The notes beneath the pieces are model-generated. The model worked only from the letters and a program-made list of their open reading frames with translations. It was not told the DNA's origin and did not search any database. Source: Pukyongia salina (GTDB lineage: Bacteria; Bacteroidota; Bacteroidia; Flavobacteriales; Flavobacteriaceae). From it: a DNA stretch of 64,000 nucleotides. The translations under genes were made by a program, and so were the position numbers. The stretch covers positions 62,001 through 126,000 of the forward strand of contig NZ_CP027062.1 in assembly GCF_002966125.1 (NCBI RefSeq), read 5' to 3'. Positions 1,170 through 45,570 of this stretch are shown one piece after another (position 1 is the stretch's first letter; each line of letters opens with the position of its first letter).

Positions 1170-1212
1170 TAAAATTAGATAGTTATCTGGTGCAAGACTA
1201 TGATATTGGTCA
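1170..1212 (-). promoter_or_regulatory. Promoter of hsp20 with TGAY-N4-RTCA operator
   Basis: The palindrome TGATATTGGTCA (1201-1212) is centred 29.5 bp upstream of the first T of TAATTTTA (reverse strand, 1177-1170). Transcription should begin near 1165, 35 bp before the ATG. No TTG element is placed at -33, as expected when an activator replaces it. Confidence 0.75.
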
Positions 1213-1251
1213 GGTTTAACCAGCAGTAAGATGTTAAAACAAACTTGAATA

Positions 1252-2622
1252 TTAAACCATCACTGTCACCGTATCCAACAAATGAGGCGATTGAACGCGC
1301 CAGCCGTAGGTGTCCTGGATCTTTGTTCTTAAGGCATCCCTTGCCGAAGGTTCGCCGTGGATCAGGAAAGTTTGTTCAGGTATGTTTTTTATTTCTGAAA
1401 GCCAATTGAGAAGTTCCCCCTGATCCCCGTGCGCAGACAGGCTTTCTATATGGTGAACCGCAGCTTTTACCGGGTAATATTTACCGAAGATCTTGAGTTC
1501 ATGGGCACCTTCCAGAAGTTGTCGCCCTCGCGTACCTTCTGCCTGATAACCCACAAGTAGTACGGAGGTTTCTTCCTTGTCGACCAATTGTTTAAGATAG
1601 GTTAGTACACGACCGCCGGTAACCATTCCGCTACCTGCTATCACTACTTTTGGCCGAGGATCGTCTATGGTTTCCCAGGTTTCTCTATAGGAGGTAATGA
1701 TCTCCATCCTGTCCTGCACTGCGTTAAATTCGGTTGCAGGAAGCTTATGCCATTCCGGGAATTGATCGAAAACAGATAGCACATTATTTCCCATAGGGCT
1801 ATCGATGAAGATCGGTATATTAGGGATCCGGTTTTCCTTGTAAAGCTTCCAGAGCAAATACATTAATACCTGTAAACGCTCCACCGCAAAAGAAGGTATG
1901 ATGAGAGTTCCTCGTTTATGTAAAGTTTTATGGACTAATTCGGTCAATAATTCACTCACACTTTCCTCGGGATGTAACTTATTACCGTAGGTACTTTCCA
2001 CAAATAGGTAATCTGCCCACTCGGGCTTCTCAGGTGGATGCAACAAGTGGTCATGGCTACGCCCTATATCTCCTGAGAAAACAAACAATTTATCGAAGAT
2101 CTGGATCTCTATAAAAGTGGAACCTATAATATGACCGTTATAACGATAACGACATTTAATATGTTCACTTAGCACTATCCACTCATCCTTCTCAACGCTG
2201 TTAAATAATCGCATGGTGTCTTCGGCCTCCTTTATGGTATAAAACGGTAAGGCCGGGGTATGACTCGTATAACCTTCCTCATTTGCTTTCTTAGCTTCCT
2301 CTTCATGGATCTTTCCGCTATCTTTCAGGATAATTCCGGTTATAGCCAGGGTGGGTGCTGTCCCTAGAATTTTCCCCTTGAATCCTTGCTTTACTAACCT
2401 TGGCAAATAGCCTGTATGATCCAGGTGTCCGTGCGTTAAGAGCACCAGATCTATCGAAGCTACATCGTATGGTATAGGCTCCCAGTTTAGTTCTCGTAGT
2501 TCCTTCAGGCCCTGAAACATCCCACAATCTACCATGAAATTGATCTCGGATGTTTCAATTAGATATTTTGAACCTGTCACAGTGCCGGCGGCACCTAAAA
2601 AATGAATTTTCGCAGTCTGCAT
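1252..2622 (-). CDS. MBL-fold / beta-CASP metallo-hydrolase with RNA-specificity domain
   Basis: Predicted zinc-dependent ribonuclease of the beta-CASP group (CPSF73/RNase J relatives), acting in the cytoplasm. The metal-binding signature HGHLDH is at residues 64-69; further ligands sit in the SGDIGRSHDH segment near 185 and a late HIESLSAHGDQ segment near 395. The beta-CASP region lies between, with GSGMVTGGR near 330. At 456 aa it is full length for the bacterial family. It follows the ATP-cone nuclease gene with a 5-bp gap, so the two are co-expressed; both follow the Usp cluster. Substrate is unknown. Members of this family are often found beside Usp and Hsp20 genes, which fits RNA turnover during stress, but that is inference. 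Confidence 0.88.
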   Translation of the reverse strand: MQTAKIHFLGAAGTVTGSKYLIETSEINFMVDCGMFQGLKELRELNWEPIPYDVASIDLVLLTHGHLDHTGYLPRLVKQGFKGKILGTAPTLAITGIILKDSGKIHEEEAKKANEEGYTSHTPALPFYTIKEAEDTMRLFNSVEKDEWIVLSEHIKCRYRYNGHIIGSTFIEIQIFDKLFVFSGDIGRSHDHLLHPPEKPEWADYLFVESTYGNKLHPEESVSELLTELVHKTLHKRGTLIIPSFAVERLQVLMYLLWKLYKENRIPNIPIFIDSPMGNNVLSVFDQFPEWHKLPATEFNAVQDRMEIITSYRETWETIDDPRPKVVIAGSGMVTGGRVLTYLKQLVDKEETSVLLVGYQAEGTRGRQLLEGAHELKIFGKYYPVKAAVHHIESLSAHGDQGELLNWLSEIKNIPEQTFLIHGEPSARDALRTKIQDTYGWRVQSPHLLDTVTVMV

Positions 2623-2627
2623 AGCTA

Positions 2628-3455
2628 TTAGTAGTTAGAAAGCATATTTACTTCTTTCAATATATTTTCCCTTCGTTTGTCTGTAATTCCCAGGTGATCG
2701 AGATAGAAATCATCTTTTATCAATTGCCTGCAGAGCACGATATCCCGACTGAGCAAAAACTGCTTTTCCCGTTGGGTTAGCAACGTAGAAACCGTTATAG
2801 GGTATAATCCCAGGCGGTCTATTCGCTCCTTGAGACTGTCCCCTTTCGGGTGATCCCAGCTTAGCAGGTATAAGCCTGCACACGTACCGTATTCTGTAGC
2901 ATCGCGGGTAAAACTAGTATTGGTTACCACCCAGCCTTCGGTAGGCGGATCGATTTTTTGATAGCTCAAAATATCCCGAAATCTAGAATCTATATAAAGC
3001 GGGATCTTAACATCGCATTTTCTTGCTTCGTCGCTATGGAATTTACATTCGGCTATGATATAATCTGAGTTTTTTCTTGCGATCACATCTACCTCATGGG
3101 TAACGCATGCACCTTTCATTAATTTCCCGATCTTAACTTCGTAGCCCGAATATTGCAACAAAGCCCCGATAAATCGCTCAAAAGGGAAACCTGTAGGCCC
3201 TAACTCGTAAATTGCCTTTTTAAGCTTATATTTTGAAGCGAAGATGGATTTCTTCCGTTTCAGTAGTGCAAAAGCACGGTTGTAAATCTCTTTGGTGGAA
3301 ATACCCTGGTATAACTCATCACGAACCACATCGATGATGGAATTAATAAGCTTTTCATCGGCCCCACTCCGGCGTAATGAAGATCTTAATTTATCCAGAG
3401 AGAATTGAACCCGTTCACCGGAAGCTTTTAACACATAGATCTCGTTGTCTTCCAT
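2628..3455 (-). CDS. ATP-cone domain fused to a PD-(D/E)XK-type nuclease
   Basis: Residues 5-75 resemble an ATP-cone, the nucleotide-sensing module of ribonucleotide reductases and NrdR. Residues about 90-215 look like a restriction-endonuclease-type fold (Mrr/RecB-like): the active-site residues D123 (in HEVDV), E136 and K138 (in AECKFH) give the D...ExK pattern. There is no membrane segment. The combination suggests a nuclease gated by ATP or dATP level. It is 5 bp from the metallo-hydrolase gene and 23 bp from the Usp gene at 3479, so it is probably the middle gene of that operon. Function in the cell is not known to me; defence, repair and RNA processing are all possible. Confidence 0.8.
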   Translation of the reverse strand: MEDNEIYVLKASGERVQFSLDKLRSSLRRSGADEKLINSIIDVVRDELYQGISTKEIYNRAFALLKRKKSIFASKYKLKKAIYELGPTGFPFERFIGALLQYSGYEVKIGKLMKGACVTHEVDVIARKNSDYIIAECKFHSDEARKCDVKIPLYIDSRFRDILSYQKIDPPTEGWVVTNTSFTRDATEYGTCAGLYLLSWDHPKGDSLKERIDRLGLYPITVSTLLTQREKQFLLSRDIVLCRQLIKDDFYLDHLGITDKRRENILKEVNMLSNY

Positions 3456-3478
3456 ATAATTTTGAATAAATCGTACCT

Positions 3479-4330
3479 TCAGTTTCTGAAATCATGAAGG
3501 GCTAAGACCGGAATTTTGGAGTGCGTCCCAAGTTCTTTTACCAAAGGCTGTGAAAATATACTTCCGAAGAATGTATGTTTCTTGTTGATAAAAGCAATCA
3601 TCCCGCTATTTCTGCTTTGCACAAATAATTCAATTGCTGCCCCAATGTCATTTTTATCTAAGGTATGAAAACTATGTTCAAGATCGGCAAAATATTCTTC
3701 AAGCAGTTGTTTGTAGTTTAGTTGGGTTTCATTCAGCTCTTTGGATGTTTCTACGTGTAAAATTCTAATTGGTGCATTAGTGAGTTTTGCGATATCGATG
3801 AGATACCCCAGTTCTCGTTTTTTATAATGGGTTTTATAACTGGTTGGGAAAACGATCTCGGTAGGATCTGCATACAAAGTATCGGGTGGAATTGCCATCA
3901 CAGGGCAGTTTCTAATTTTTTCCATTATTAACACTGTATTACTTCCGAAGGAAACATTTAAAGCATCTGTATCACCTTTGGTGCCCATGATCACCAGGTC
4001 TATATCTTTTAACTCTACCACTTCTTTTATAGCACTTAGCAAACTGTCTTGTTTGGAGATGGTATAATAATTATGATCACTCCCCTCATCCCTGAATGAC
4101 AACTGTTGTAAAATTCGTTCCAGACCTTTCATAGATTTCTCCTGAACAGTTTTGGAGTATTCATTGTGAGCTTGTGGAACATTTATGTTATCCAGGGCAA
4201 AGCCCGTATAGTCGTAAACATTTAATATAAAAAAATCGCAGGCTTCATTTTTAAACAGGTCTACGGCATAGGCAATAGCATCCCATGCATTCCTTGAAAA
4301 ATCGGTAGGTAATAATATTTTTCTTCGCAT
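3479..4330 (-). CDS. Universal stress protein, two tandem UspA domains (Usp 1)
   Basis: 283 aa, twice the size of a single Usp domain. The N-terminal domain begins with the ILLPTDFS strand and keeps the nucleotide-binding signature G-2x-G-9x-G-S (GTKG...FGSNT, around residues 116-132). The C-terminal domain lacks a clear signature and probably does not bind ATP. Cytoplasmic, no signal peptide. It has its own promoter in front of it (site at 4386-4397), although it also lies 64 bp after another Usp gene. It likely leads an operon with the ATP-cone nuclease and metallo-hydrolase. Usp proteins are typically induced by starvation, oxygen loss or uncoupling; the exact task is unknown. Confidence 0.9.
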   Translation of the reverse strand: MRRKILLPTDFSRNAWDAIAYAVDLFKNEACDFFILNVYDYTGFALDNINVPQAHNEYSKTVQEKSMKGLERILQQLSFRDEGSDHNYYTISKQDSLLSAIKEVVELKDIDLVIMGTKGDTDALNVSFGSNTVLIMEKIRNCPVMAIPPDTLYADPTEIVFPTSYKTHYKKRELGYLIDIAKLTNAPIRILHVETSKELNETQLNYKQLLEEYFADLEHSFHTLDKNDIGAAIELFVQSRNSGMIAFINKKHTFFGSIFSQPLVKELGTHSKIPVLALHDFRN

Positions 4331-4354
4331 GGCTTAGATTATTAAGGTTATGCT

Positions 4355-4397
4355 TAAAAATAGGTAGGATATAATTGTTTTAAAATGATATCTGTCA
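4355..4397 (-). promoter_or_regulatory. Promoter of Usp 1 with TGAY-N4-RTCA operator
   Basis: The reverse strand carries TGACAGATATCA (4397-4386) and TATTTTTA (4362-4355); centre-to-box distance is 29.5 bp. The operator overlaps the stop codon of the preceding Usp gene, so an internal promoter sits at the gene junction. Predicted start of transcription is near 4350, about 20 bp before the ATG. Confidence 0.7.
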
Positions 4398-7003: not shown

Positions 7004-7046
7004 CAAAGTTACCTTTCGTAAGCAACAGATAAAATGATAATTATCA
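7004..7046 (-). promoter_or_regulatory. Promoter of the Usp 4-3-2 operon with TGAY-N4-RTCA operator
   Basis: Perfect palindrome TGATAATTATCA at 7035-7046 and TAACTTTG on the reverse strand (7011-7004), centre-to-box 29.5 bp. Predicted start near 6999. No TTG at the -33 position. Confidence 0.78.
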
Positions 7047-7351: not shown

Positions 7352-8188
7352 TTATTCGTGTAAAACCAGGAACGGGATCTCAGAATGATAACTTATCCTG
7401 GCTACTCGTGGTTTAAAAAGTAATCGTTGAAAGAAATTGAGGTTTTTGGCGACCATGGCAACTAGCTGTATATCCATAACGTCTATAAAGGATTGCAGGC
7501 CTTGTTCTAGTTTTGGGCTTTTAACCCAGTGAAAACTATAAGAGCGACCTACAAGTGCATCGTGAAGGAAACTTCTGTTCTTCTCCTGCTCCTCATTTAA
7601 ATGAAGATCGTTATTTGCAACTCTTAATACTTTAACCGAAGCCTGGTGCAGATCGGCCACAGCAAGTAGAGTGTCCAATACCTTTTGTTTGTAAATGATA
7701 TTGAAATCGGTTGGAAATACTATATTCTTGGGGCCTTCAAATACAGCACGTTCAGGGATCACAAGGATAGGGCATTTAACCCTGGTGATCACGGCGCCGG
7801 TGTGGCTCCCAATGGTAGCTTCCTTAAGACCGGAAGCTCCTTTGGTTCCCATAACAATTAGGTCTATATTATTTTCTTCAACAGCATTCTTAATTCCTTC
7901 AATAAATAAAGACTGAATAGCTCGTATTTCAACACGTGCGGTTCGCCTTGGATAAAGAGTTTCTATCTTATGCTGAATCTCTCTTAACTTTTTCTCTTTC
8001 TTTTTTTGCGAATTGTCGATGATAGAAATTCCATTGGCATGTAGGTTTGCCTCATCGGTCACACTGCCACTATAGGATATATGCAAAAGGTGAATATCAA
8101 CCGCCACCTTTTCAAAAAAAGCCAATGCGTATTCTATCGCATTCCACGCGTTGTGTGAAAAATCTGTAGGAATGAGTATTCGCTTCAT
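7352..8188 (-). CDS. Universal stress protein, two tandem UspA domains (Usp 5)
   Basis: 278 aa from the ATG at 8188. A longer reading frame starts at 8209, but the TATTTTTG promoter box occupies 8214-8207 and transcription should begin near 8202, so the upstream start is not used; the product then begins MKRILIPTDFS like its paralogues. N-domain signature GTKG...IGSHT is intact; the second domain starts with a NIVFPTDF strand and is degenerate. It is transcribed alone, 8 bp from the end of the convergent small membrane protein gene and downstream of the regulator gene, from which it is separated by its own operator. Confidence 0.9.
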   Translation of the reverse strand: MKRILIPTDFSHNAWNAIEYALAFFEKVAVDIHLLHISYSGSVTDEANLHANGISIIDNSQKKKEKKLREIQHKIETLYPRRTARVEIRAIQSLFIEGIKNAVEENNIDLIVMGTKGASGLKEATIGSHTGAVITRVKCPILVIPERAVFEGPKNIVFPTDFNIIYKQKVLDTLLAVADLHQASVKVLRVANNDLHLNEEQEKNRSFLHDALVGRSYSFHWVKSPKLEQGLQSFIDVMDIQLVAMVAKNLNFFQRLLFKPRVARISYHSEIPFLVLHE

Positions 8189-8206
8189 CGGGATCAACTT
8201 CAGAAG

Positions 8207-8249
8207 CAAAAATAACCGCCCTACAAGGGGTAAAGAATGATATATGTCA
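8207..8249 (-). promoter_or_regulatory. Promoter of Usp 5 with TGAY-N4-RTCA operator
   Basis: Reverse strand TGACATATATCA (8249-8238) and TATTTTTG (8214-8207), centre-to-box 29.5 bp. The box lies inside the longest possible reading frame of Usp 5 and so fixes its start at 8188. Confidence 0.77.
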
Positions 8250-8262
8250 GTTTTGAAAAAAT

Positions 8263-9324
8263 TTACTCCACGTGTCGCAGACCATCCAGATCGATAATAC
8301 GGATGTTCCTGCCTTCAATTTCAATGAGGCCATCCTTTTTAAATCCGGAAAGTGTTCGGATAAGGCTCTCGGTGGCTATCCCGGCTACACTGGCAAGATC
8401 GTGGCGGGAGATCTTAATATTATCGTTTGGGTTCTTATTGAGGATCTCTGCAAACTGTAAAATAGTTGCGGCGGTTTTCTTGCGTACAGAGCTATATGCC
8501 ATCTGTAGTAACTGTTCTTTTATTTCGGTAATATTTTCGGAAAGAACATTCATAAGTTCCAGCGAAACAGCGTTACTTTTGGTAAGTATTTCCTTTAAAA
8601 TGTTCTTGGAGACTACAGCCAGTTCAACGTCTTCTACAGCCGTGGCAGATTCCTGGTAAGGTACGGCTTCCTCAAAGGAAGTAAAGCCAAGAAAATCATC
8701 CGGTTTGTGTAGTGCTGTGATAAGTTCCTTGCCGTTCTCATCCATCTTATGACTTTTCACAATTCCCTTTAAGATCAGGAAGATATTATTGGAGTGTTCG
8801 CCTTCCTTATAAATGGTATTTCCCTTATCATAGTTCGCGATCTCGCCATTGTCATCGAAGAAATTTTTAAGCTCATTCAGGTTTCTAATGGCATCGTCCT
8901 CAGTTTCATCACCGCCCAAGGCAGAAGACGCCTCTCGAACTTGCATTAAAAGTTGGGCTTTAGCAAGACGGCTTTCCACTGCACTTAATAATTCGTCCTC
9001 TTCAAAAGGTTTGGTGAGGTAATCATCGGCACCCATGTCCATTCCTTTTCTAATCTCCTTATGCTCGGTTTTGGCCGACAAAAATATAAAGGGAATGTGC
9101 CGTGTGTCACCATTTTGAGAAAGTGCACTAAGCACGCCATAACCATCTACTTCGGGCATCATTATATCGCACACAATTACGCCGGGAAGGTGATTCCTGG
9201 CCATTTCAATGCCAACTTTTCCATTGGGTGCAGTTAAAACTTTATATCCGGAAAGTTCCAGCATTTCGGCAGTATTCTCCCGTAATGCTACATCGTCTTC
9301 AACTAGAAGTATGGTTTTATTCAT
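8263..9324 (-). CDS. Hybrid response regulator: receiver domain fused to Crp/Fnr-type DNA-binding protein
   Basis: 353 aa. Receiver domain at residues 3-125 has the acidic pair E9/D10-D11, the phospho-acceptor D53, S83 and K105, so it should be phosphorylated. A cyclic-nucleotide-binding-like beta-barrel follows (about 165-265) and a Crp-type winged helix (about 275-345). In the recognition helix (ATESLIRTL) the Glu and Arg that contact the GA/TC bases in CRP and FNR are present, while the first CRP arginine is Thr; this predicts a TGA-N6-TCA target. No Cys cluster for an iron-sulfur centre is seen, so sensing should come from the kinase. The start overlaps the kinase stop by 4 bp. Likely activator of the TGAY-N4-RTCA promoters found across this window. 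Confidence 0.92.
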   Translation of the reverse strand: MNKTILLVEDDVALRENTAEMLELSGYKVLTAPNGKVGIEMARNHLPGVIVCDIMMPEVDGYGVLSALSQNGDTRHIPFIFLSAKTEHKEIRKGMDMGADDYLTKPFEEDELLSAVESRLAKAQLLMQVREASSALGGDETEDDAIRNLNELKNFFDDNGEIANYDKGNTIYKEGEHSNNIFLILKGIVKSHKMDENGKELITALHKPDDFLGFTSFEEAVPYQESATAVEDVELAVVSKNILKEILTKSNAVSLELMNVLSENITEIKEQLLQMAYSSVRKKTAATILQFAEILNKNPNDNIKISRHDLASVAGIATESLIRTLSGFKKDGLIEIEGRNIRIIDLDGLRHVE

Positions 9325-10550
9325 GAATTGGTGCCTGTAGGAATAGTCACTTTAAACGTACTGCCCTTATTTTCTTCACTCGTAAAGGTAATAGTACCTC
9401 CAAGGTTTTCCAAATGGTTTTTTACAATATTGAGTCCAATTCCCGTACCTTGATTCAGCAAGGCGTTCTCGGCGCGGAAATAGCGGTTGAAGATATATTT
9501 TTGTTCTTCTCTGGGAATTCCCATTCCTTCATCTCTTATTTCAATGTGTAGGTGATTATCTTCCTTCGCCACCATAATATCAACATTGGTATTTTCTGAA
9601 GAATATTTAATAGCGTTGTTGATGAGATTGGTGAGTGTAAGTTCGAGTATCTTTTCATCAAATTCGATAACTATACTATCGATGCCTTCAGGATAATTGA
9701 TAACCTGACCTTCCTTCAACAGCATGTTGGCGCCATAGATGACCTCGTTCACAACCTTGCTAATTGGAAATTTACTGAATTTATAATTCACTTTCCCACT
9801 CTCCAAACGCTCTATAGAAAGAAAATCGTCCAGAATGTTGTTGAGGTATTTCACCTTATTCTGAATGGTCTTTATGTGCTTCTCCCGTTTTTCCTGTTGT
9901 TCTTCCAGCGTATATTTCCCCGCAAGGGTTGCTGAGGTAAAGATACCACTAAGTGGTGTTTTGAATTCATGCGAGACAAGCGACAGGAACTTTGTTTTCA
10001 AATCACTTAACTCACGCTCTTTCCGAAGCGCCTCCTTCATTTTGTTTTCGGCTTCCTTGCGACGTTCGACCTCCTTCTCAAGTTTATCGACACTTTTACT
10101 AAGTTCCTCGGTTCTTAAGGCAATCTTGGTTTCAAGTTCGTTGTTCAACTCTCGAATTTCCAGTTCTTGTTCCTTCCTAACTGTGATATCTATCAACAAT
10201 GCCATAACATACCTTTGTCCATCAACTTCGAAAGGGTTGAGCCCTACCTCTACCGGAAAGCGGCTGCCGTCTTTTTTCAGGCCGTACAGGTCTCGCCCGT
10301 GACCCATTTGCCGGGCCGAGCTTTTCGCCATGAACGATTTAAAATGTCCTTGATGATTAGGGTGATAATCTTTCGGAATAAGCACTTCGAGTGTTTTCCC
10401 GGTAAGTTCTCCTTCCTTGTATCCAAATAATTTATCCAAAGAAGGATTGGTTGCAACAATTTGTTGTTTGTCGTTTACAACAACTATTCCTTCGGAAATC
10501 GCTTCAGTAAGAACCTTGTAAATATCACTGCTGTTGCCAAACTCCTTCAT
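9321..10550 (-). CDS. PAS-domain sensor histidine kinase
   Basis: 409 aa, soluble. A PAS domain covers residues 8-125, a coiled coil 126-185, the dimerisation/phospho-acceptor domain has H194 in VSHEFKTPL, and the ATPase domain has the N box (NLINNAIKYS), DEGMGIP and GTGIGL motifs. The PAS segment LIPKDYHPNHQGHF aligns with the FixL stretch holding the proximal haem histidine; H66 falls on that residue, and GRDLYGLKKDGSRFPV matches the following FixL-like strand. Many non-haem PAS domains also keep this His, so oxygen sensing is possible, not shown. It overlaps the receiver-Crp gene by 4 bp and is its evident partner. The promoter carries the regulon operator, so the pair is autoregulated. 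Confidence 0.92.
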   Translation of the reverse strand: MKEFGNSSDIYKVLTEAISEGIVVVNDKQQIVATNPSLDKLFGYKEGELTGKTLEVLIPKDYHPNHQGHFKSFMAKSSARQMGHGRDLYGLKKDGSRFPVEVGLNPFEVDGQRYVMALLIDITVRKEQELEIRELNNELETKIALRTEELSKSVDKLEKEVERRKEAENKMKEALRKERELSDLKTKFLSLVSHEFKTPLSGIFTSATLAGKYTLEEQQEKREKHIKTIQNKVKYLNNILDDFLSIERLESGKVNYKFSKFPISKVVNEVIYGANMLLKEGQVINYPEGIDSIVIEFDEKILELTLTNLINNAIKYSSENTNVDIMVAKEDNHLHIEIRDEGMGIPREEQKYIFNRYFRAENALLNQGTGIGLNIVKNHLENLGGTITFTSEENKGSTFKVTIPTGTNS

Positions 10551-10554: not shown

Positions 10555-10598
10555 CAAAAATAGCGATTTTAAAAATGCCATCGAACTGATAATTATCA
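10555..10598 (-). promoter_or_regulatory. Promoter of the histidine kinase / regulator operon, TGAY-N4-RTCA operator
   Basis: Symmetric operator TGATAATTATCA (10587-10598) and TATTTTTG on the reverse strand (10562-10555); the distance is 30.5 bp, 1 bp longer than at the other sites. The predicted start of transcription falls at or next to the ATG (10550), so the message may be almost leaderless. Confidence 0.68.
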
Positions 10599-10629
10599 TA
10601 AAATCTCATCGGCCGGAAATTTAATTTTA
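10587..10629 (+). promoter_or_regulatory. Divergent promoter of the TerB-like gene sharing the same operator
   Basis: The same palindrome at 10587-10598 also sits exactly 29.5 bp from TAATTTTA (10622-10629) on the forward strand. One operator thus serves both directions. Predicted start is near 10634, 18 bp before the ATG at 10652. Confidence 0.7.
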
Positions 10630-10651: not shown

Positions 10652-11056
10652 ATGCCTTATACCGAAAAACCTGAGATCGCTTTCTATCAGAAAATAGGAG
10701 AGCTTTTCTACGCCATAGCGGCGGCCGATAAAGTGGTGCGAGAAGTTGAATATAAAGCCCTGAAAAAATTGGTGCGTGAAATTTGGTCGAAATTCGATAG
10801 TAGTACAGACGACTTCGATTCGCAAGCCATTTATCAAATGGAAATTGTTTTTGATTGGTTCGACTATGAACGAATGGATGCCGATAGCTGCTTCGAAAGT
10901 TTCGAAAATTATATTAAAGAAAACCCTAAGTTATTTACAACTGAACGCAAGGAACTCATTTATTACACCGCGAATGAAATTGCTGCAGCCTTTTCGGGCA
11001 AAAATAAATCGGAACTCATCATGCTAGGCAAGCTTCACTTACTCCTCGAAGCCTAA
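10652..11056 (+). CDS. TerB-like helical protein, 134 aa
   Basis: All-helical soluble protein. The segment FYAIAAADKVVREVEYKAL (about residues 18-36) resembles the acidic metal-binding helix turn of TerB/DjlA-N-type domains (AxADGxVxxxE), although the usual Asp-Gly is Asp-Lys here. Function in the family is loosely tied to stress and membrane processes. It is read divergently from the sensor kinase and from a promoter that uses the same operator, so it is predicted to be part of the kinase's own regulon. Family assignment is moderate. Confidence 0.65.
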   Translation: MPYTEKPEIAFYQKIGELFYAIAAADKVVREVEYKALKKLVREIWSKFDSSTDDFDSQAIYQMEIVFDWFDYERMDADSCFESFENYIKENPKLFTTERKELIYYTANEIAAAFSGKNKSELIMLGKLHLLLEA

Positions 11057-11093: not shown

Positions 11094-11136
11094 TGATGAA
11101 TATCATATTTAAAACGTGGTTTTACGGCTAACTTTA
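11094..11136 (+). promoter_or_regulatory. Promoter of lipoprotein-trxA-deoC unit with TGAY-N4-RTCA operator
   Basis: TGATGAATATCA at 11094-11105 and TAACTTTA at 11129-11136; distance 29.5 bp. Predicted start near 11141, 16 bp before the ATG at 11157. Confidence 0.72.
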
Positions 11137-13171: not shown

Positions 13172-14008
13172 TTACATTTTGAATGTGATCACGGGTAAAT
13201 CTGAATGATTCACCAGATCCTCGCTGATACTTCCTGAGAAGAAGTGCGCCAACCCTTTGCGACCATGTGTAGGGATGGCAATCAGGTCTGCGTTCACTTT
13301 GTTACTGTAGGTGAATATGCCTTCCTCTATGGAGTAGGCATTGTAATAATTCACATCATTCATAGTATAGGTTCCATCGAGTTCGGCTTTCAAGAAAAAT
13401 TTGGATACCTTTTCTTCCATTTCCTGTGTACTTCTGAAACCGTCACCAGGCGTATTTACGTAAACCATTTGCATTTCAACACGCAGATCATCGAATAACT
13501 TTTTAGCCTTCAGAAAAGAATTCACATTCTCTTCATCGAAGTTATTGGCAAACACAACCTTATTCATTGGTTCGTCACCCATTCGATTCTTAACAACCAG
13601 AACCGGAATCTCTGAAGTTCGTACCACTTTCTCAGTATTCGATCCAACAAAAACCTCTCGCAGACCGCTACTTCCGTGGGATCCCATCACAATCAAGTCT
13701 GCGTTGAATTCTTGTGCGACAGAATCAATTTCATGAAAAAGTTTATAATTCTGTACGGTGGTTTGAATTTCTAAGCCTTTAAGGTAATCCCGATCCAAAA
13801 ATTCTTCGAAACGTTTATCGGCCAGTTTCATATAATACATAGCTTCGAAAACTTCCTGCGAATCATCTTTGGTCAAGACGGCCTGTGAAAGGCCCATCAT
13901 GTGTAGTGCAACCAGAGATGCGCCATGCCTTTTGGCAATTTTTGCGGCCACCTCCAGGGCGTGTTCAGAATAATCTGAAAAATCTATAGGTACTAAAATT
14001 GTTTTCAT
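13172..14008 (-). CDS. Universal stress protein, two tandem UspA domains (Usp 6)
   Basis: 278 aa. Differs from Usp 1-5: the opening is ILVPIDFSDYSEHAL and both halves keep glycine motifs (GSHG...VGSNT in the first domain, THGRKGLAHFFSGS near the C-terminus), so this may be the ancestral, doubly competent form. Follows hpf with a 20-bp gap; the two are read from the operator promoter at 14349-14391. Pairing with a ribosome hibernation factor supports a dormancy role. Confidence 0.92.
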   Translation of the reverse strand: MKTILVPIDFSDYSEHALEVAAKIAKRHGASLVALHMMGLSQAVLTKDDSQEVFEAMYYMKLADKRFEEFLDRDYLKGLEIQTTVQNYKLFHEIDSVAQEFNADLIVMGSHGSSGLREVFVGSNTEKVVRTSEIPVLVVKNRMGDEPMNKVVFANNFDEENVNSFLKAKKLFDDLRVEMQMVYVNTPGDGFRSTQEMEEKVSKFFLKAELDGTYTMNDVNYYNAYSIEEGIFTYSNKVNADLIAIPTHGRKGLAHFFSGSISEDLVNHSDLPVITFKM

Positions 14009-14028: not shown

Positions 14029-14325
14029 TTAGTGATGGTAGGTTGTTTCTTTTCTCTTCTTAAGTTGCTTGTTGAGGTCTGAAATAGCTTCTTTTACTGC
14101 AACCTCGTAGTTCTCTGCTTTTGAAGATGCAAAAATCTTAGGGCCCGGAAGACTTAATTCGATCTCGCAAATACTTTTTTTATTGATATCCTGTCCTAAT
14201 TTGAAGAATACCTGTGCATTAATGAGCCAATTGTACTTGGTAGCCAGTTTGTTTAATCTCTTTTCTGTGAATGCCGTGAGCGTTTCGCTAGTTGGCATTT
14301 TTACATATTGAATTGTAATTGTCAT
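14029..14325 (-). CDS. hpf: Ribosome hibernation promoting factor, short HPF/RaiA type
   Basis: 98 aa with the beta-alpha-beta-beta-beta-alpha layout of the family: MTITIQYVKMPTSETL start, a KLxxKYNWLINAQVFFK segment, and a basic C-terminal helix ending KRKETTYHH. It binds the decoding region of the small ribosomal subunit and stores ribosomes in inactive form. It lacks the long-form dimerisation domain. First gene of the hpf-usp6 operon under a TGAY-N4-RTCA promoter. Confidence 0.9.
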   Translation of the reverse strand: MTITIQYVKMPTSETLTAFTEKRLNKLATKYNWLINAQVFFKLGQDINKKSICEIELSLPGPKIFASSKAENYEVAVKEAISDLNKQLKKRKETTYHH

Positions 14326-14348: not shown

Positions 14349-14391
14349 CAAATGTAACTTCCCGAGATGGGAAAAAATATGATTTGTGTCA
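14349..14391 (-). promoter_or_regulatory. Promoter of hpf-usp6 with TGAY-N4-RTCA operator
   Basis: Reverse strand TGACACAAATCA (14391-14380) and TACATTTG (14356-14349); 29.5 bp apart. Predicted start near 14344, 19 bp before the ATG. Confidence 0.77.
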
Positions 14392-18321: not shown

Positions 18322-19587
18322 ATGAAAAAAATAGCAACAATCCTCCTTGTTTACTTGATAAGTGCAGCATTTACCACGCCTCACCCCTATCCTATAGACG
18401 GTTATGAATACACAGGCATCAAGCGATTAAAACGCCTGGAGATGATTAAAAGCGGGGAATTAAAAGACGGTACCGTCCTGCCACCCGGGGCCATGAAATC
18501 TTATGTGGACATTCAATTAAATCTCTTTTCCCGATACCAGGATTCTGTTTCTACCTTCCTAGTAAAAGACGAGGCTTTTCAACAACAGATCAGTGACTTG
18601 TTCAGGGGGTTGGATCGAAGTTATTCTCTGGCGGTCCTGGATGTAACCGATCCGGAAAAACCACGATACGCGAGCAGAAACGAAACGGTGGGTTATCAGC
18701 CCGGCAGTGTGGGTAAACTTGCGGTGATGATAGGTTTATTCGATCAATTGGCTAAGCTGTATCCCGATTCTTTTGAAGACCGTATAAAACTATTGAAGGA
18801 GCGATCTGTAAAAGCCGGCCCCTGGGGTATGACCGATGAACACACCATCCCTATATTCAATATTGAAACCAACAAACTGGTGAAACGTCAAGTGGTACCC
18901 AGTGACGTTTTTTCCTTGTTCGAATGGGCAGATCACATGATGTCTGTTAGTAATAATGGGGCTGCTAGCATCCTTTGGCGTGAAGTATTGCTTATGGCGG
19001 CCTTTAAACAAGATTACCCATCCCTAACACAGGAGCAGGCCGATGCATACTTTAAAACCACTCCAAAAAATGAGATCACAGATCTGGGAAATGATGTGGT
19101 TAATCTTCCGTTGCGCGAAATGGGGATCACACACGAAGAATGGCGGTTAGGTTCTTTTTTCACCAGAGGTGCTAATCCTTATGTGGGCGCAAAAGGCGGC
19201 AGTACGGGAACACCAATAGGTTTGATGAAATTTTTAATTCAACTGGAGCAGGGCCAGGTGATCGATGCCAAATCCAGCCTGGAAATGAAACGCCTGATGT
19301 ATATGACCGATCGACGAATTCGCTATGCACAATCCCCATCTTTAAAGGAGGCGGCTGTGTATTTTAAATCAGGTAGCCTGTATAAATGTGATCGCTCCAA
19401 AGGTGAAGCCTGTGGAAAATATATGGGAAATGTATTTAATTATATGAATTCGGTCGCTATTGTGGAACATCCGGATAACTATTGTTATATGGTGGTACTT
19501 ATGACTAATGTACTGCGGAAAAATTCGGCTTCAGATCATATGAGTCTTGCCGCCAGTATCGATAAGGTGATCCGCAATAAGAATTAA
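18322..19587 (+). CDS. Exported penicillin-binding-type serine hydrolase
   Basis: 421 aa; signal peptide at residues 1-19. Motifs of the beta-lactamase/PBP fold: S129-V-G-K132, S210-N-N212 and K349-S-G351. It lacks clear class A features between, has a 100-residue N-terminal region, and two cysteines near the C-terminus (KCDRSKGEACG). It may be a carboxypeptidase or another peptidoglycan or ester hydrolase. Starts 1 bp after the dikinase-like gene. Its stop overlaps that of the convergent transporter gene through a shared TTAA. Confidence 0.82.
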   Translation: MKKIATILLVYLISAAFTTPHPYPIDGYEYTGIKRLKRLEMIKSGELKDGTVLPPGAMKSYVDIQLNLFSRYQDSVSTFLVKDEAFQQQISDLFRGLDRSYSLAVLDVTDPEKPRYASRNETVGYQPGSVGKLAVMIGLFDQLAKLYPDSFEDRIKLLKERSVKAGPWGMTDEHTIPIFNIETNKLVKRQVVPSDVFSLFEWADHMMSVSNNGAASILWREVLLMAAFKQDYPSLTQEQADAYFKTTPKNEITDLGNDVVNLPLREMGITHEEWRLGSFFTRGANPYVGAKGGSTGTPIGLMKFLIQLEQGQVIDAKSSLEMKRLMYMTDRRIRYAQSPSLKEAAVYFKSGSLYKCDRSKGEACGKYMGNVFNYMNSVAIVEHPDNYCYMVVLMTNVLRKNSASDHMSLAASIDKVIRNKN

Positions 19588-22573: not shown

Positions 22574-23491
22574 TTATCGAACCGAAACTTTTGGGTGTCG
22601 TTGAATAATATTCTCTACAGAATAAACCAGATTACGAATAATTTGTTCCCCATTTGGGTCGTCAACCAATGCAACCAGAATATATCTGCGGTTAGGATCT
22701 ACACCCCAAACCAGGACAGAATCTGAGTGATAGGTTTTCCACGATCCGGATTTTCTGTACAATTTAGCGTTTGGTGCAATTTGATCCAGACTATTCACAA
22801 ATTTGTGATGTAATTCGGGATCTTCCATGATTGCCAGCATTTGTTTTGAGCGTTTTTCATTTACCAGCTTTCCATGTGCAAGCAAATAGTAAAAACGGCA
22901 TACCTGGCTTACAGTTGCAGCGTGACTAAGGTTCTTTAATGGTTCCCTGTTTGTGTCACCACCGCCACCGTAGCGCTTTCCTACCCACAAGCCTCCACCA
23001 TAATCCTCGTCGTAGAATTCGTATTTAGGATCGGTCATTACGGCCTCGATCTTCTCATATCCAATGCGATCGATCATACGCGTAGACGCGCTGTTATCCG
23101 ACTTACTTATCATAAGTCGCATATCCTTTTTAACTTCTGCTGTTTCCTTCAGTTCGCCTTTATCGATAGCATCCATGGAGGCCAGAAGTACTGCGATCTT
23201 TGGAAGACTTGCTGCATACATCATATGGTTACCATTTATCCTTGCAAATTTGGTTTGCTTAGGGTTACTTAGGTCTACCAGTCCTACCGCCATCTTTTTT
23301 TGATCGATTAGGTTCTTCCATGTAGGATTCGATTTTAATTCTTTGTCGAGCTGCGCCTGCAAGTCGGCATTGAGTAAAGTACGCAATGGTTTAATATCGC
23401 TATCCTTGGTGCTGCGTGGTAACTGATTTTGAGCAACCAGGGTGGATATAGTCATTAAAAATGTTACTATAAAAATTGATCTTTTATTCAT
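22574..23491 (-). CDS. Exported beta-lactamase-type serine hydrolase
   Basis: 305 aa with a signal peptide at 1-20 (cleavage after LVA). The three motifs are S95-L-P-K98, S131-D-N133 and K247-S-G249, the order and spacing of class A beta-lactamases; no obvious E-x-x-x-N for the deacylating glutamate was found, so it may not hydrolyse beta-lactams. A Gly-rich YGGGGD loop lies near residue 174. It is monocistronic with its own terminator. Distant relative of the gene at 18322. Confidence 0.85.
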   Translation of the reverse strand: MNKRSIFIVTFLMTISTLVAQNQLPRSTKDSDIKPLRTLLNADLQAQLDKELKSNPTWKNLIDQKKMAVGLVDLSNPKQTKFARINGNHMMYAASLPKIAVLLASMDAIDKGELKETAEVKKDMRLMISKSDNSASTRMIDRIGYEKIEAVMTDPKYEFYDEDYGGGLWVGKRYGGGGDTNREPLKNLSHAATVSQVCRFYYLLAHGKLVNEKRSKQMLAIMEDPELHHKFVNSLDQIAPNAKLYRKSGSWKTYHSDSVLVWGVDPNRRYILVALVDDPNGEQIIRNLVYSVENIIQRHPKVSVR

Positions 23492-27175: not shown

Positions 27176-28420
27176 TTAATTAACTTCTTGAAACTTCTTT
27201 CCTTTCTCACTCATGGTCGCAGAAACAAAAGGAATGTGTACCCCTTTTATCAGCATATTCCAGTAGACCCATCTAAAAGCCATTTTACCCATGTGGTTGG
27301 CTCTGCTCTCCTTAAGCAGTCGTAACGGACCTACACCGGGAAATGGAAATGTTCCTTCCACCGGTTCGTGTGTATAATTAAAATCGATCAACAAGGCCTT
27401 ACCGTTTCCTGTTTCGATAAAACAATTTGCATGGCCATCGAATTCTTCTTTTAGTTCCTCTCCCTTGATAAAGCGCAGAATATTATCCGTCAAGATTTCG
27501 GCCTCGAAATGAGCCACAGATCCGGCCTTGGAAGCAGGAATGTTAGTGGCATCACCAATTGCGAAGATATTCTCATGGTCTAAAGTTTGAAGAGATCCTT
27601 TATTTGTAGGGATAAAATTAAGATCGTCTCCCATTCCCGAACGTTCAATCAAAGCATCACCCATATTGGTAGGTACCGTGACCAGAAGGTCGTATTCTAC
27701 TTCTTTATCTGCATAGTCGATAATCTTATTATTCTCGTAATCTACACGTTCAATATTGAAGTCGGTTACCTCCTTAATATTCTTTTCTTCCAATAAATAA
27801 TGTAGTGTTTTAGTGGCTGTAGGTTTGGTAAAAGCACCTCCAAGAGGGGTCACAAAGGTAATATCTACTTTGTCTCGCATTCCTTTATGTTTGAAATACG
27901 AATCGGCCAGGAAGGCAAATTCCAGAGGAGCTACCGGACATTTAATAGGCATTTCGGTAATATGAACCACTAATTTACCACCCTCCCACTCGCGCAATTT
28001 ATCTCGCAATGCCTTAGCACCTTCGTAGGTGTAGAAATCGAAGATATTCTTATACCACATTGGGCCATTCATACCTTCAATTTCATCTGGAGCTGTTTTC
28101 GACCCGGTTGCAACAATTAGTATGTCGTACTCTAATTTGTCCTTGTCTTCCAGAATAACCGTATTAGTTTCGGGTTGAATGAGTTCTATTTTCTTCTGAA
28201 TATATTCGGCCCCTTTTGGAATAAATTTCTTGCCATTCTTCTTTACCTGTTTCGTGGTATAAATATCGAACGGCAGAAATAAAAACCCCGGTTGATAATA
28301 ATGTGTTTTATATTGATCTACAATTGTGATCTTCCATTCTTTCTTCGGAAGTTTTTTAATCATATGATTCGCCATCATGGTACCTGCTGTACCGGCTCCA
28401 AGAATTACTAAGTTTTTCAT
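27176..28420 (-). CDS. Sulfide:quinone oxidoreductase-like flavoprotein
   Basis: 414 aa. FAD-binding GAGTAG motif at residues 8-13, a second dinucleotide-type ATGSKT near 105, and IFAIGDATN near 285. Two cysteines sit where SQR has its essential pair: C161 in IKCPVAPLEF and C333 in HANCFIE; the third SQR cysteine (about 128) is absent, as in some functional relatives. Expected reaction: oxidise sulfide, pass electrons to quinone at the inner membrane and load sulfane sulfur. First gene of the operon with DsrC- and DsrE-like proteins, under a TGAY-N4-RTCA promoter, so likely induced with the stress set. Confidence 0.87.
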   Translation of the reverse strand: MKNLVILGAGTAGTMMANHMIKKLPKKEWKITIVDQYKTHYYQPGFLFLPFDIYTTKQVKKNGKKFIPKGAEYIQKKIELIQPETNTVILEDKDKLEYDILIVATGSKTAPDEIEGMNGPMWYKNIFDFYTYEGAKALRDKLREWEGGKLVVHITEMPIKCPVAPLEFAFLADSYFKHKGMRDKVDITFVTPLGGAFTKPTATKTLHYLLEEKNIKEVTDFNIERVDYENNKIIDYADKEVEYDLLVTVPTNMGDALIERSGMGDDLNFIPTNKGSLQTLDHENIFAIGDATNIPASKAGSVAHFEAEILTDNILRFIKGEELKEEFDGHANCFIETGNGKALLIDFNYTHEPVEGTFPFPGVGPLRLLKESRANHMGKMAFRWVYWNMLIKGVHIPFVSATMSEKGKKFQEVN

Positions 28421-28469: not shown

Positions 28470-28512
28470 TAAAATTAAGAGCGTTCCCATAGAATATTTA
28501 TGACTTTCGTCA
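28470..28512 (-). promoter_or_regulatory. Promoter of SQR-DsrC-DsrE operon with TGAY-N4-RTCA operator
   Basis: Reverse strand TGACGAAAGTCA (28512-28501) and TAATTTTA (28477-28470); 29.5 bp. Predicted start near 28465, 45 bp before the ATG. Confidence 0.74.
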
Positions 28513-28549: not shown

Positions 28550-28592
28550 TGACAATGATCATATATCTTGAAAATTCTCGGCAATAGATTTG
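28550..28592 (+). promoter_or_regulatory. Promoter of fadL-like gene with TGAY-N4-RTCA operator
   Basis: TGACAATGATCA (28550-28561) and TAGATTTG (28585-28592); 29.5 bp. Predicted start near 28597, 86 bp before the ATG. Unlike the kinase/TerB pair, this divergent pair uses two separate operators 49 bp apart. Confidence 0.75.
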
Positions 28593-28682: not shown

Positions 28683-30008
28683 ATGAAAAACTTCGTAAGC
28701 ATACTGGTGTTCTTGTTCTCAATAGCAGTCTATTCACAGGCAGGTCACATCATGCAGGGCGTTGGCTCTGTAAACATGTCTATGGGTGGTGCGGCGACCG
28801 GACAACCCACAGATATCTCGGGTGCCCTGCACTGGAATCCGGCTACTATCTCAACCTTCAATGAAGACATATTAAAGTTCGATATCGGACTTTTCTTCTC
28901 TTCACCCGAACTTAGTTCGACAGTTCCTGTATTCGATGATATGGGTCAACCCACAGGACAATTCTTTAGCGGTGTAACAGAAGATGACCGTGGTGTTTCT
29001 CCTATGCCGGCCCTGGCAATGGTATGGGGTGCAAACGATAGTAAGCATACCTTTGGGGCATCTGCATTTGGTATTAGTGGTTTTGGTGTGACCTTTCCAG
29101 AAAACGCTTTAAACCCTATTAACACACCCCAAAGTATGGGTGGTTTTGGAAGAATCGAATCAGACTATATTCTATTACAGATCGGGTTCGCCTGGGCCTA
29201 TGAGATCTCGGAACAGTTTTCCATAGGTATTCAACCAACATTCGATTACGCAACTCTGGAACTAATGCCAAATCCAACAGCTAACCCTACTCTTGCAGGT
29301 TATCCTTCCACAGATAAAGCCACTGCATTAGGATTTGGTGCACAAATAGGTCTTTATTACGACACAGGTGTAGGATTTAAGTTTGGTACTTCCTATAAAA
29401 CCACGCAGTATTTCGGCGATTTCGAATTCGATAATACCTATTTAAATGGTGCTACCGCAACCAATAAATTCAATATGGATTATCCTGCCATCTGGTCGGT
29501 AGGTGCTGGTTTTTCTGAAGGCGATTTCGACATCGCCCTCGATTACCGATTAGTTGATTACGAAAACACAGATGGATTTTCGGAAACGGGATGGACACCC
29601 ACCGCTTCTGTTGCGGGATTTGGATGGAAGAATATAAGTATAATTTCGGCGGGTATTCAATATAAAGGAGTTGAAAAACTTCCATTACGTCTTGGATATA
29701 CTTACAGTTCCAACCCAATCGAGAGTGATGTGGCATTCTTCAATATCCCGGCAACAGCCATAATAGAGAATGCATTTCAGTTTGGTCTCAGTTACGAGGT
29801 CAGCGATGCTGTAAGGCTTGATGGTGTATACCATTACGGTTCGAGCGCCGGAGCTACTTCGGGGCCATTACTAAATCCACTGTTCATAGCCAATTATCCT
29901 CCCTATGGAGCCATTCCCGGTAGCGAGGTGTCTTATGATATGACCACCTCCATGGTGATGGTAGGTGTGAGTTATACTTTTAAGACGACGGAGAAAGAGA
30001 CTGAGTAA
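28683..30008 (+). CDS. OmpP1/FadL-family outer membrane protein
   Basis: 441 aa; signal peptide 1-18 (cleavage near VYSQ). The plug-like start (GHIMQGVGSVNMSMGGAATG) with the conserved NPA in HWNPATIS and the alternating beta strands to the C-terminus are typical of FadL transporters, which move fatty acids or aromatic hydrocarbons across the outer membrane. Ends in an aromatic strand (VGVSYTFKTTEKETE, slightly extended past the usual terminal Phe). Divergent from the SQR operon and predicted to share its regulator. Confidence 0.9.
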   Translation: MKNFVSILVFLFSIAVYSQAGHIMQGVGSVNMSMGGAATGQPTDISGALHWNPATISTFNEDILKFDIGLFFSSPELSSTVPVFDDMGQPTGQFFSGVTEDDRGVSPMPALAMVWGANDSKHTFGASAFGISGFGVTFPENALNPINTPQSMGGFGRIESDYILLQIGFAWAYEISEQFSIGIQPTFDYATLELMPNPTANPTLAGYPSTDKATALGFGAQIGLYYDTGVGFKFGTSYKTTQYFGDFEFDNTYLNGATATNKFNMDYPAIWSVGAGFSEGDFDIALDYRLVDYENTDGFSETGWTPTASVAGFGWKNISIISAGIQYKGVEKLPLRLGYTYSSNPIESDVAFFNIPATAIIENAFQFGLSYEVSDAVRLDGVYHYGSSAGATSGPLLNPLFIANYPPYGAIPGSEVSYDMTTSMVMVGVSYTFKTTEKETE

Positions 30009-42106: not shown

Positions 42107-42159
42107 TTACTTTTTTATTCCCACCGCGGCCGTGAAGCCAGCTTCAGCCTTGTGGAAAT

Positions 42160-42191: not shown

Positions 42192-42194
42192 CAT

Positions 42195-42272
42195 TGGTCG
42201 GGGTGGCAGGATTCGAACCTGCGACCTCCTGCTCCCAAAGCAGGCGCGATAACCGGGCTACGCTACACCCCG
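42195..42272 (-). tRNA. tRNA-Pro (anticodon TGG), CCA encoded
   Basis: 78 nt including CCA. Acceptor CGGGGTG / CACCCCG, anticodon stem CCTGC / GCAGG with loop TTTGGGA, T stem GCAGG / CCTGC with loop TTCGAAT, discriminator A, then CCA. Confidence 0.97.
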
Positions 42273-42284
42273 AAAATTGGATTG

Positions 42285-42313
42285 CAAATATATTCCTTTT
42301 ATTTATTTTTCAA
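42285..42313 (-). promoter_or_regulatory. Promoter of tRNA-Pro(TGG)
   Basis: Reverse strand TTG (42313-42311), 18 bp, TATATTTG (42292-42285), ending 12 bp before the tRNA. Consensus Bacteroidota promoter. Confidence 0.83.
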
Positions 42314-42348
42314 ACGTTTTTTAGTACCTTTTCAGAAATGAGATCCCT

Positions 42349-43470: not shown

Positions 43471-43497
43471 AAAAGGGGCCGATACAGGCCCCTTTCA
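43470..43497. terminator. Terminator shared by the dehydrogenase and porin genes
   Basis: Stem AGGGGCC / GGCCCCT with loop GATACA between convergent genes. The six-base A run gives a strong T tract on the reverse strand; on the forward strand only TTT follows. Confidence 0.82.
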
Positions 43498-43513
43498 TTA
43501 ACAAAAAATTAAA

Positions 43514-44848: not shown

Positions 44849-44850
44849 GG

Positions 44851-45465
44851 TTAATTGTAATTAAGGTTAAAATCAATTATAATATCATTTCCGGTTTTTA
44901 AGGTCCCTAGCAAGGCAGTAGGTGGTTCCACATCGAAATCGGACATTTTCAATGGTTTTTCACCTTTTATGATCACCTTACCTCCTACTACTGCGATTTT
45001 AGTATCAATAGTAACTGTCCTGGTTTTACCCGCAATGGATAGCGTCCCTATTAATTTTGCTGTGTAATTATCGCTGCCTGTATGTTGTATGGATTCTACT
45101 TTATTAAGTCGGTAGGTGATGCTAGGATGGCTGTCACTCTTAAGGGCATCATAACATTTATTGTCCATGACGCGCTTACCACTCTCGAGGGTTTTTACAC
45201 CCACTTTTACCTCGATATTGTGTATTTTAAGATCTCCATCAGTTACATGATCGAAATCGAGTTTTCCGCTAAAAGATTTCGAGATCATCTCCCAGTCATG
45301 TAATGACGAGGTTCCTTTAATAGTAAAATTCGATCCCGAAGAATTAAGTTTGTAACTTAGTTTATTCGTGGGTTGTACTGCATCGTTCATGGCAATATCT
45401 CCTGCTTGAGAAAAACCGTAAAACGAAACAAAAAACACTAACATCAATAGATTAAACTTTTTCAT
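44851..45465 (-). CDS. YceI-family exported protein
   Basis: 204 aa from ATG 45465 (45468 is equally possible). A longer frame up to 45564 contains the gene's own promoter box and operator, so it is not the start. Signal peptide 1-19 (cleavage at GFSQ/AG). The mature domain has the YceI lipocalin-like pattern: FTIKGTSSLHDWEM, KMSDFDVEPP near the C-terminus. YceI proteins bind isoprenoid-type lipids in the periplasm. Operon with the porin-like gene. Confidence 0.9.
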   Translation of the reverse strand: MKKFNLLMLVFFVSFYGFSQAGDIAMNDAVQPTNKLSYKLNSSGSNFTIKGTSSLHDWEMISKSFSGKLDFDHVTDGDLKIHNIEVKVGVKTLESGKRVMDNKCYDALKSDSHPSITYRLNKVESIQHTGSDNYTAKLIGTLSIAGKTRTVTIDTKIAVVGGKVIIKGEKPLKMSDFDVEPPTALLGTLKTGNDIIIDFNLNYN

Positions 45466-45495
45466 CATGTGAAGACTTTTGTGTAACATTTGATA

Positions 45496-45538
45496 CAAAA
45501 CTAAATACCGCTTGTAGTTTAATCTATGATAATTGTCA
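45496..45538 (-). promoter_or_regulatory. Promoter of yceI-porin operon with TGAY-N4-RTCA operator
   Basis: Reverse strand TGACAATTATCA (45538-45527) and TAGTTTTG (45503-45496); 29.5 bp. Predicted start near 45491, about 25 bp before the ATG. Confidence 0.77.
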
Positions 45539-45558
45539 GCACCGAAAATCCGGAAAAT

Positions 45559-45570
45559 TGACATTTATCA
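45559..45570. promoter_or_regulatory. Second TGAY-N4-RTCA site upstream of yceI
   Basis: TGACATTTATCA, centred 32 bp (about three helical turns) upstream of the yceI operator. No matching TAnnTTTG box lies 29.5 bp away in either direction, so it may act as an auxiliary site for yceI or modulate the divergent cytochrome c gene. Confidence 0.5.

Follow-up and report, generated by a model that had tools for sequence, protein, structure and literature searches.

The 64,000-nucleotide stretch of the Pukyongia salina genome analysed here (contig NZ_CP027062.1, C1:62001-126000; in the following, the window) raises the question of which protein, and in response to which signal, reads a palindrome, TGAY-N4-RTCA, that recurs at a fixed distance upstream of unrelated genes. 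The window makes up 2% of a genome of 3,182,272 bases. Going beyond the preliminary description of this DNA, we propose that the likely regulator is a kinase/response-regulator pair with Crp/Fnr output encoded in the window itself, and that the sites are probably class II operators of a microaerobic/dormancy regulon driven by this haem-PAS kinase and its REC-Crp partner, a receiver domain fused to a Crp/Fnr-type module.

Is the arrangement real? We scanned by regular expression for TGAY-N4-RTCA, a spacer and the -7 box TAnnTTTR, with the reversed pattern or another palindrome as control; chance was modelled by 300 dinucleotide shuffles of the window. Eleven promoters had been named beforehand, with the palindrome centre 29.5 bases from the first T of the box in ten of them and 30.5 bases in that of the kinase and regulator genes. 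All eleven are present in the window, and the distances correspond to 23 (N23) and 24 bases between RTCA and TAnnTTTR. The window contains 14 palindromes (shuffle mean 4.5, maximum 11) and 10 exact TGAY-N4-RTCA-N23-TAnnTTTR promoters, for which the shuffles gave a mean of 0.01 and a maximum of 1. When spacers of 20-30 bases were allowed, the whole genome yielded 22 sites, of which 19 have exactly 23 bases; the control with the reversed pattern yielded 5, none of them at N23. Ten of the 19 genomic sites lie within the window (binomial chance of at least ten under an even spread, 8e-13). The regulon had been called window-wide, which holds for these ten; nine further N23 sites are located elsewhere in the genome.

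Relatives were collected with the response-regulator protein as query. The 80 loci used below are the best of 554 confirmed ones, are 67-97% identical and come, according to their titles, nearly all from Flavobacteriaceae (Aquimarina, Dokdonia, Mesonia, Arenibacter, Aequorivita, Maribacter and others). Every one of them carries at least one exact N23 site. A histogram of spacings from 0 to 60 bases shows 419 sites at 23, 22 at 24, 16 at 25 and at most 10 at any other value, and the control palindrome occurred twice at 23. Loss of the spacing in orthologous promoters had been named as the observation that would speak against a regulon; the spacing is conserved. The exact-spacing promoter arrangement is real, strong and conserved in the family, and an origin by chance is ruled out both by the shuffles (0.01 versus 10) and by the histogram of the 80 loci.

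Where does the operator lie with respect to transcription? In mapped start sites of Flavobacterium psychrophilum, the TAnnTTTG box occupies positions -12 to -5, as given in the excerpted text of PMC9723704. Because the first T of the box thus lies at -12, the operator centre lies at -41.5, which is the class II position. A two-fold operator centred there is what defines class II Crp/Fnr promoters, the box position being taken from another species' start sites, and the class II geometry proposed earlier fits. For the sites in the 80 loci, the first start codon of an open reading frame (ORF) of at least 60 residues follows the inferred +1 at a median distance of 18 bases. The consensus derived from 415 distinct sites is [C 64%/A 27%]TGAY-N3-T(84%)-RTCA-T(97%). 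Hence, the palindrome stands as far as its two-fold TGA core is concerned; the outer bases are asymmetric, with C (64%) or A (27%) at -48 versus T (97%) at -35. There is little information around -33 in the aligned sites, and TTG occurs at -34 to -32 in 9 of the 419 sites versus 96 of 1694 other TAnnTTTG matches (the latter include coding matches), in agreement with the earlier remark that these promoters lack a TTG at -33.

The strict spacing to the -7 box could also be understood if the palindrome were a generic promoter element for RNA polymerase or a sigma factor and no activator site. We consider this extremely improbable: TGA-N6-TCA has two-fold symmetry, the downstream genes are largely coherent, and the pattern is nearly absent from 26 genomes that lack both candidate regulators introduced below. 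The geometry shared across the sites supports, as suggested at the outset, a single regulon read by an activator.

The proposed activator is encoded at 8263..9324 on the minus strand and consists of 353 residues with the domains Response_reg (1.5e-28), cNMP_binding (3.9e-17) and HTH_Crp_2 (5.4e-13). Its ORF overlaps by four bases with that of the proposed O2 sensor, a PAS-HisKA-HATPase kinase (9321..10550, minus strand). A kinase match lies just upstream of the regulator in 79 of the 80 loci, the gap being below 60 bases in 70 loci and roughly 60-100 bases in the other nine; none was found beside the regulator in the remaining locus (L071). For neither protein does any of the 25 best NCBIfam matches shown reach its cut-off. 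In 81 of 81 regulator sequences, the acidic pair, the phospho-accepting aspartate and the lysine of the receiver are conserved (D10, D11, D53, K105). The recognition helix reads T-E-S-L-I-R, and its E, S, L, I and R are each found in 81 of 81 sequences (E319, R323). The glutamate and arginine at these positions of the CRP and FNR helices read the TGA core. With a cNMP-binding fold and an HTH_Crp domain bearing the E..R helix, the protein has the features of the Crp/Fnr family. The AlphaFold model shows the secondary structure of a receiver and a CRP-like part (mean pLDDT 79, pTM 0.41), and all 50 Foldseek matches shown are members of the CRP/FNR family; their query TM-scores are low (0.27-0.31) and the root-mean-square deviations are 12-17. 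Due to the low pTM, the low TM-scores and the high deviations, domain placement in the model was left uninterpreted.

What kind of Crp/Fnr protein is it? A cysteine set for an Fe-S cluster is not present, as the window protein contains one cysteine and its 80 orthologues have a mean of 1.45; a classic FNR is therefore ruled out. The position that by eye corresponds to the phosphate-cassette arginine of CRP is a glutamate (E225) in 81 of 81 sequences. The genome encodes three cNMP-binding proteins, two of which have HTH_Crp_2 over the cut-off, and the E..R helix occurs only in the window protein; the other two were read by eye as R-V-V-I-S-R and P-E-F-M-S-K. The palindrome was also considered as the site of the Crp-type gene at C1:1814148, which was rejected upon its helix R-V-V-I-S-R, read by eye. 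As a separate observation, the second Crp-type gene (in the region C1:1812500-1818500, L187; also L002) is a neighbour of a TauE/SafE-like permease and a protein with a metallo-beta-lactamase fold (assigned by eye). The latter resembles persulfide dioxygenases, and the adjoining Crp-type gene perhaps encodes a separate sulfur regulator.

The kinase provides a clue to the signal. A comparison of its 140-residue PAS part with the PDB gave 29 matches, the best 13 of which are DosP or FixL (2.5e-18 to 1.1e-10), one of them being listed as yddU, which we take to be the same protein as DosP. These are followed by another kinase (9e-9) and then by blue-light receptors (8e-6). In an ungapped alignment, H66 falls on residue 77 and R86 on residue 97 of DosP, which we take to be the haem and O2 contacts H77 and R97; in FixL, H200 and R220 play the equivalent roles. 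The proximal histidine and the distal arginine typical of FixL and DosP are thus both found. H66, R80 and M82 are present in 80 of 80 kinases, and R86 in 75. The Foldseek list for the kinase model is dominated by the kinase core and is uninformative in this respect.

One may ask whether the pair controls the operator while the kinase senses NO, CO, the redox state or the respiratory chain instead of O2. The targets nosZ, SQR and thioredoxin would be compatible with NO, sulfide or redox signals, and R86 is not universal. On the other side, DosP and FixL, the best matches of the PAS part, are O2 sensors, H66 and R86 align with DosP positions 77 and 97, and the cbb3 oxidase and hemN, classic low-O2 genes, are among the targets. 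We therefore judge a signal other than O2 to be rather unlikely.

The proposed low-oxygen response can be followed through the target genes. Outside the window, N23 sites lie before another usp gene; before genes for a cytochrome, a fasciclin-like protein (by eye) and NosZ (1.5e-282, over the NCBIfam cut-off); before a heavy-metal P-type ATPase gene in the ccoI position, just under the subfamily cut-off; before the run ccoS-ccoNO-ccoQ (by eye)-ccoP (under the cut-off)-ccoG (over the cut-off), whose domain matches are FixS and COX1-FixO; before hemN (over the NCBIfam cut-off); before a patatin-like gene; and before a gene for a 128-residue protein without match. Two more are doubtful: one precedes a TonB-like pair (by eye) with a leader of 182 bases, the other (C1:2735831) has no suitable ORF. 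In the 80 loci, the first ORFs behind the 419 sites most often resemble the window proteins Usp5 (85), TerB-like (63), Usp4 (38), HPF (30) and Usp6 (30), followed by the lipoprotein (22), Usp1 (20), Usp3 (10), Hsp20 (9), TrxA (5), the p0-like protein (4), Usp2 (3), YceI (3) and TauE (1); 93 belong to others and three sites have no ORF. The "TerB-like" gene, found behind 63 sites in 61 of the 80 loci, is therefore among the most frequent members of the regulon. Compared with proteins of the bacterium's own genome, the same first ORFs include CcoS (21, in 21 loci), ccoI (2), ccoNO (1) and hemN (1). The predicted target list is what one would expect for a Crp/Fnr regulon of low oxygen, with Usp, Hsp20 and HPF added. 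Both cbb3 oxidase and hemN are classic targets at low O2. In F. psychrophilum, the cbb3 oxidase is strongly up-regulated under oxygen limitation, as stated in the excerpt of PMC9723704. The gene set of a low-oxygen/dormancy response, as recognised in the preliminary description, is thus supported; the signal itself we infer from the target genes and the haem-PAS signature. A cluster of 21 small membrane proteins was also noticed behind the operator in the relatives (e.g. L028 12871, minus strand; the representative has about 95 residues).

Which protein, then, binds the operator? The alternative is that the operator belongs to a different regulator, either a stand-alone FNR-type protein with an Fe-S cluster or some other member of the Crp family, with the pair simply encoded nearby. 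In an order-wide sample of 296 genomes, a REC-Crp match (threshold 1e-30) occurred in 38, a few of them single-domain, and many genomes without REC-Crp still carry the operator. Among 14 genomes examined, those without REC-Crp hold a stand-alone FNR-type protein with an N-terminal CxxC motif and further cysteines, whose helix is as a rule T-E-S-x-I-R or T-E-T-x-I-R, like that of REC-Crp; the FNR-type protein of one genome (G143) is below the NCBIfam Fnr cut-off. We sorted 50 sampled family genomes by full-length REC-Crp and FNR-type matches at 1e-55 or better. Both regulators were present in 19 (median 20 sites, range 7-48, control mean 0.58), REC-Crp only in 8 (median 14.5, range 8-19, control mean 0.25) and the FNR-type only in 23 (median 9, range 2-23, control mean 0.74). 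The 26 genomes with neither, from five other families, had a median of 0 sites (range 0-2, control mean 0.31).

The genomes with only the FNR-type protein thus show the same operator, the same geometry and the same kinds of target, and the T-E-S-x-I-R helix is common to FNR-type proteins. Of the 96 sites in seven of these genomes, 30 were examined; their first ORFs include ccoS three times, ccoNO, SQR and usp once each, and apparent denitrification genes. Of the 93 sites in the seven REC-Crp-only genomes besides the present one, 30 were examined as well, and ccoS and hemN (three each) and usp-like genes (eight) are among the first ORFs. The operator flanks of these two sets of 30 sites (FNR-type versus REC-Crp) are not clearly different, with T at -35 in 22 versus 19 and C or A at -48 in 24 versus 24. 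It is very probable from these comparisons that both regulators read one operator. In the present genome, however, a stand-alone FNR-type protein was not found, the one match to the FNR-type query having 1.0e-28 compared with 2.2e-59 or better for those classed as FNR-type in the family, and by eye the two other cNMP-binding proteins lack the E..R helix. REC-Crp is the only protein found in this genome that could read the operator. Given also the median of 0 sites in genomes with neither regulator, it is quite unlikely that another protein binds the sites and that the pair is a mere neighbour.

The promoter of the pair itself differs from the other ten. It lies at 10555..10598 (minus strand), and its spacer of 24 places it one base out of register; palindrome and box are present as described before, but outside the class II register. 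Of 78 related loci tested, with one spacing recorded per locus, 64 carry a palindrome close to where the kinase gene starts. Towards the kinase, 19 of them have a spacer of 24 bases, 14 one of 25 and 13 one of 19-22 or 26; 18 have no box, and not one has 23. For the divergent gene, this palindrome stands at spacing 23 in 48 loci and also in the window (10555-10629). Since the kinase promoter is out of register in relatives too, the distance of 30.5 noted earlier is no accident, and the predicted promoter of the regulator is kept away from the class II spacing.

A survey across the phylum (296 genomes, E <= 1e-50) yielded REC-Crp in 43 genomes, 26 of them outside the order, and 20 of these 26 loci were chosen for comparison. 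In 18 of them, a PAS kinase was matched close to the regulator; all 18 have H66 and 14 have R86. In 12 other-order genomes, N23 with TAnnTTTG occurs at 41 sites, compared with 1 for the control.

Several of our results weigh against assigning the regulon to the O2-responsive pair. R86 is replaced in five of the 80 kinases, by leucine in L051, L066 and L080, by glutamine in L054 and by serine in L070. The regulator's own promoter is outside the class II register. Kinship is a confounder, as the genomes with neither regulator come from other families, are smaller and are partly incomplete. In two of the REC-Crp-only genomes (G072 and G206), another Crp-type protein occurs, with the helix T-E-E-Q-V-I-R; setting them aside leaves six strict cases (8-19 sites each, the present genome included), and all Crp-type proteins were read in the present genome only. 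Where both regulators occur, the assignment is ambiguous, because the FNR-type-only genomes show the same operator. In the 20 loci from other orders, 40 palindrome-box pairs were found, nine with spacing 23 and 11 with spacing 45; as the latter outnumber the former, local clustering of the sites is not clearly preserved in these loci. Three of the 12 other-order genomes are without any N23 site, and in these 12 no clear covariation was seen between the type of recognition helix (I versus S) and the outer base of the operator.

The individual N23 promoters of the window, each consisting of the operator and the -7 box, are distributed as follows; for the usp 4-3-2 run, the name is that of the preliminary description. 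On the minus strand, sites precede hsp20 (690-1130; HSP20 PF00011, 4.3e-20) at 1170..1212, usp1 (3479-4330; Usp, 5.4e-17) at 4355..4397, the usp 4-3-2 run (6978-4395) at 7004..7046 and usp5 (listed ORF 7352-8209; Usp, 3.1e-27) at 8207..8249. The listed TTG start of usp5 lies upstream of the inferred +1, which is why its true start is probably internal. Next to the kinase, the plus-strand site at 10587..10629 has its palindrome in common with the kinase promoter and precedes the 134-residue "TerB-like" gene (10652-11056, plus strand), for whose product no Pfam match was found. It is followed on the plus strand by 11094..11136, before the genes for a DUF3298 protein (the lipoprotein), trxA and deoC (over the NCBIfam cut-off). 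Further minus-strand sites are 14349..14391, before hpf (14029-14325; HPF/YfiA, over the cut-off) and usp6 (13172-14008), and 28470..28512, before SQR (27176-28420; type III SQR, over the NCBIfam cut-off) and DsrC-like and DsrE-like genes; the site at 28550..28592 on the plus strand precedes a gene of the fadL/TodX family (28683-30008). The last one (45496..45538, minus strand) lies before yceI (44851-45564) and the gene for a 444-residue protein without Pfam match. For yceI, too, the true start is probably internal, as the inferred +1 is downstream of the listed ATG (45564). A second palindrome (45559-45570) was seen 32 bp upstream of the yceI operator, the two together spanning 45527-45570, and only the proximal palindrome has an N23 box. 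Tandem second palindromes at a fixed distance were not found in the 80 loci, where 34 upstream matches for the 419 sites have scattered offsets. Near the regulon, the window also encodes a 948-residue protein with a TLC ATP/ADP-transporter-like part and HEAT repeats (19584-22430) and two Beta-lactamase2 family proteins, one per strand (18322-19587 and 22574-23491).

How does the proposed system compare with known ones? According to the excerpted text of PMC7888657, the hFixL-FxkR-FixK system of a Rhizobium works at 1% O2 and FnrN under near-anaerobic conditions, both acting on the anaerobox. As far as that excerpt goes, FixL-FixJ-FixK and hFixL-FxkR-FixK share with the present system a FixL-type sensor kinase, a Crp/Fnr-type end regulator and a cbb3 target, and the sharing of operators between FnrN and FixK resembles the 19 of 50 family genomes with both regulators. 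In the rhizobia it describes, the response regulator induces a separate fixK, whereas the present system has receiver and Crp/Fnr module in one protein of 353 residues, which would save one transcription step; phylum and promoter (-7 TAnnTTTR) are different as well. We read the arrangement as a FixLJ-FixK-like oxygen response that appears condensed to two proteins and would control a DosR-like gene set.

FNR and ANR of E. coli and Pseudomonas use a class II site at -41.5 with a TGA core and control cbb3, hemN, usp and denitrification genes. Site, core and kinds of target are alike in our case, but the window regulator has no Fe-S cysteines. DosS/DosT-DosR of Mycobacterium combines haem GAF kinases with a NarL-type regulator, whose regulon contains Usp, Hsp20 and ribosome-hibernation genes; a predicted haem kinase and a Usp/Hsp20/HPF set are common to both systems, whereas kinase and output are of the PAS and HTH_Crp type here. 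The closest solved PAS domain, DosP/EcDOS (PDB 1v9y, 9cdr), belongs to a c-di-GMP enzyme, which is no kinase.

We consider the following course of events likely. The PAS histidine kinase, a soluble protein that probably binds haem and responds to O2, would lose O2 and then phosphorylate the receiver domain of the neighbouring REC-Crp regulator. The activated dimer would bind [C/A]TGAY-A-W-W-T-RTCAT centred at -41.5 and recruit RNA polymerase to promoters that have TAnnTTTR but no TTG at -33, thereby switching cbb3 oxidase, hemN, nosZ, sulfide oxidation, Usp, Hsp20 and HPF. The direction of regulation would presumably be activation.

To our knowledge, oxygen control in Bacteroidota is poorly described. 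The kinds of mechanism assumed here, class II Crp/Fnr activation and haem-PAS kinases, are known; their combination and the assignment of the regulon are new. Among open-licence PubMed Central papers, judged by title and start of the abstract, no description of the REC-Crp pair or the operator was found, and look-ups of terms in PMC9239204 and PMC6365647 gave nothing on the pair. According to the excerpt of PMC8510549, a Flavobacteriales Crp/Fnr protein of one microbiome has been assigned to the carbon-sensing MalR group.

For the family and the phylum, we lean slightly towards the following picture. In Bacteroidota, two unrelated oxygen inputs, the Fe-S FNR-type protein and the haem-PAS kinase with its receiver-Crp partner, may have come together at a single operator in a constant position. 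Some lineages would have retained both, possibly for two oxygen thresholds, and others would have lost the FNR-type protein with the regulon intact; a DosR-like gene set would have come under a haem sensor a second time. An operator, its exact position, a likely activator and a likely sensor can thus be named together, along with a genome-wide list of targets. Natural genomes with one, the other or both regulators allow one to test how the operators of a regulon persist when its sensor is exchanged, and also whether Usp/Hsp20/HPF dormancy sets were brought under haem kinases independently.

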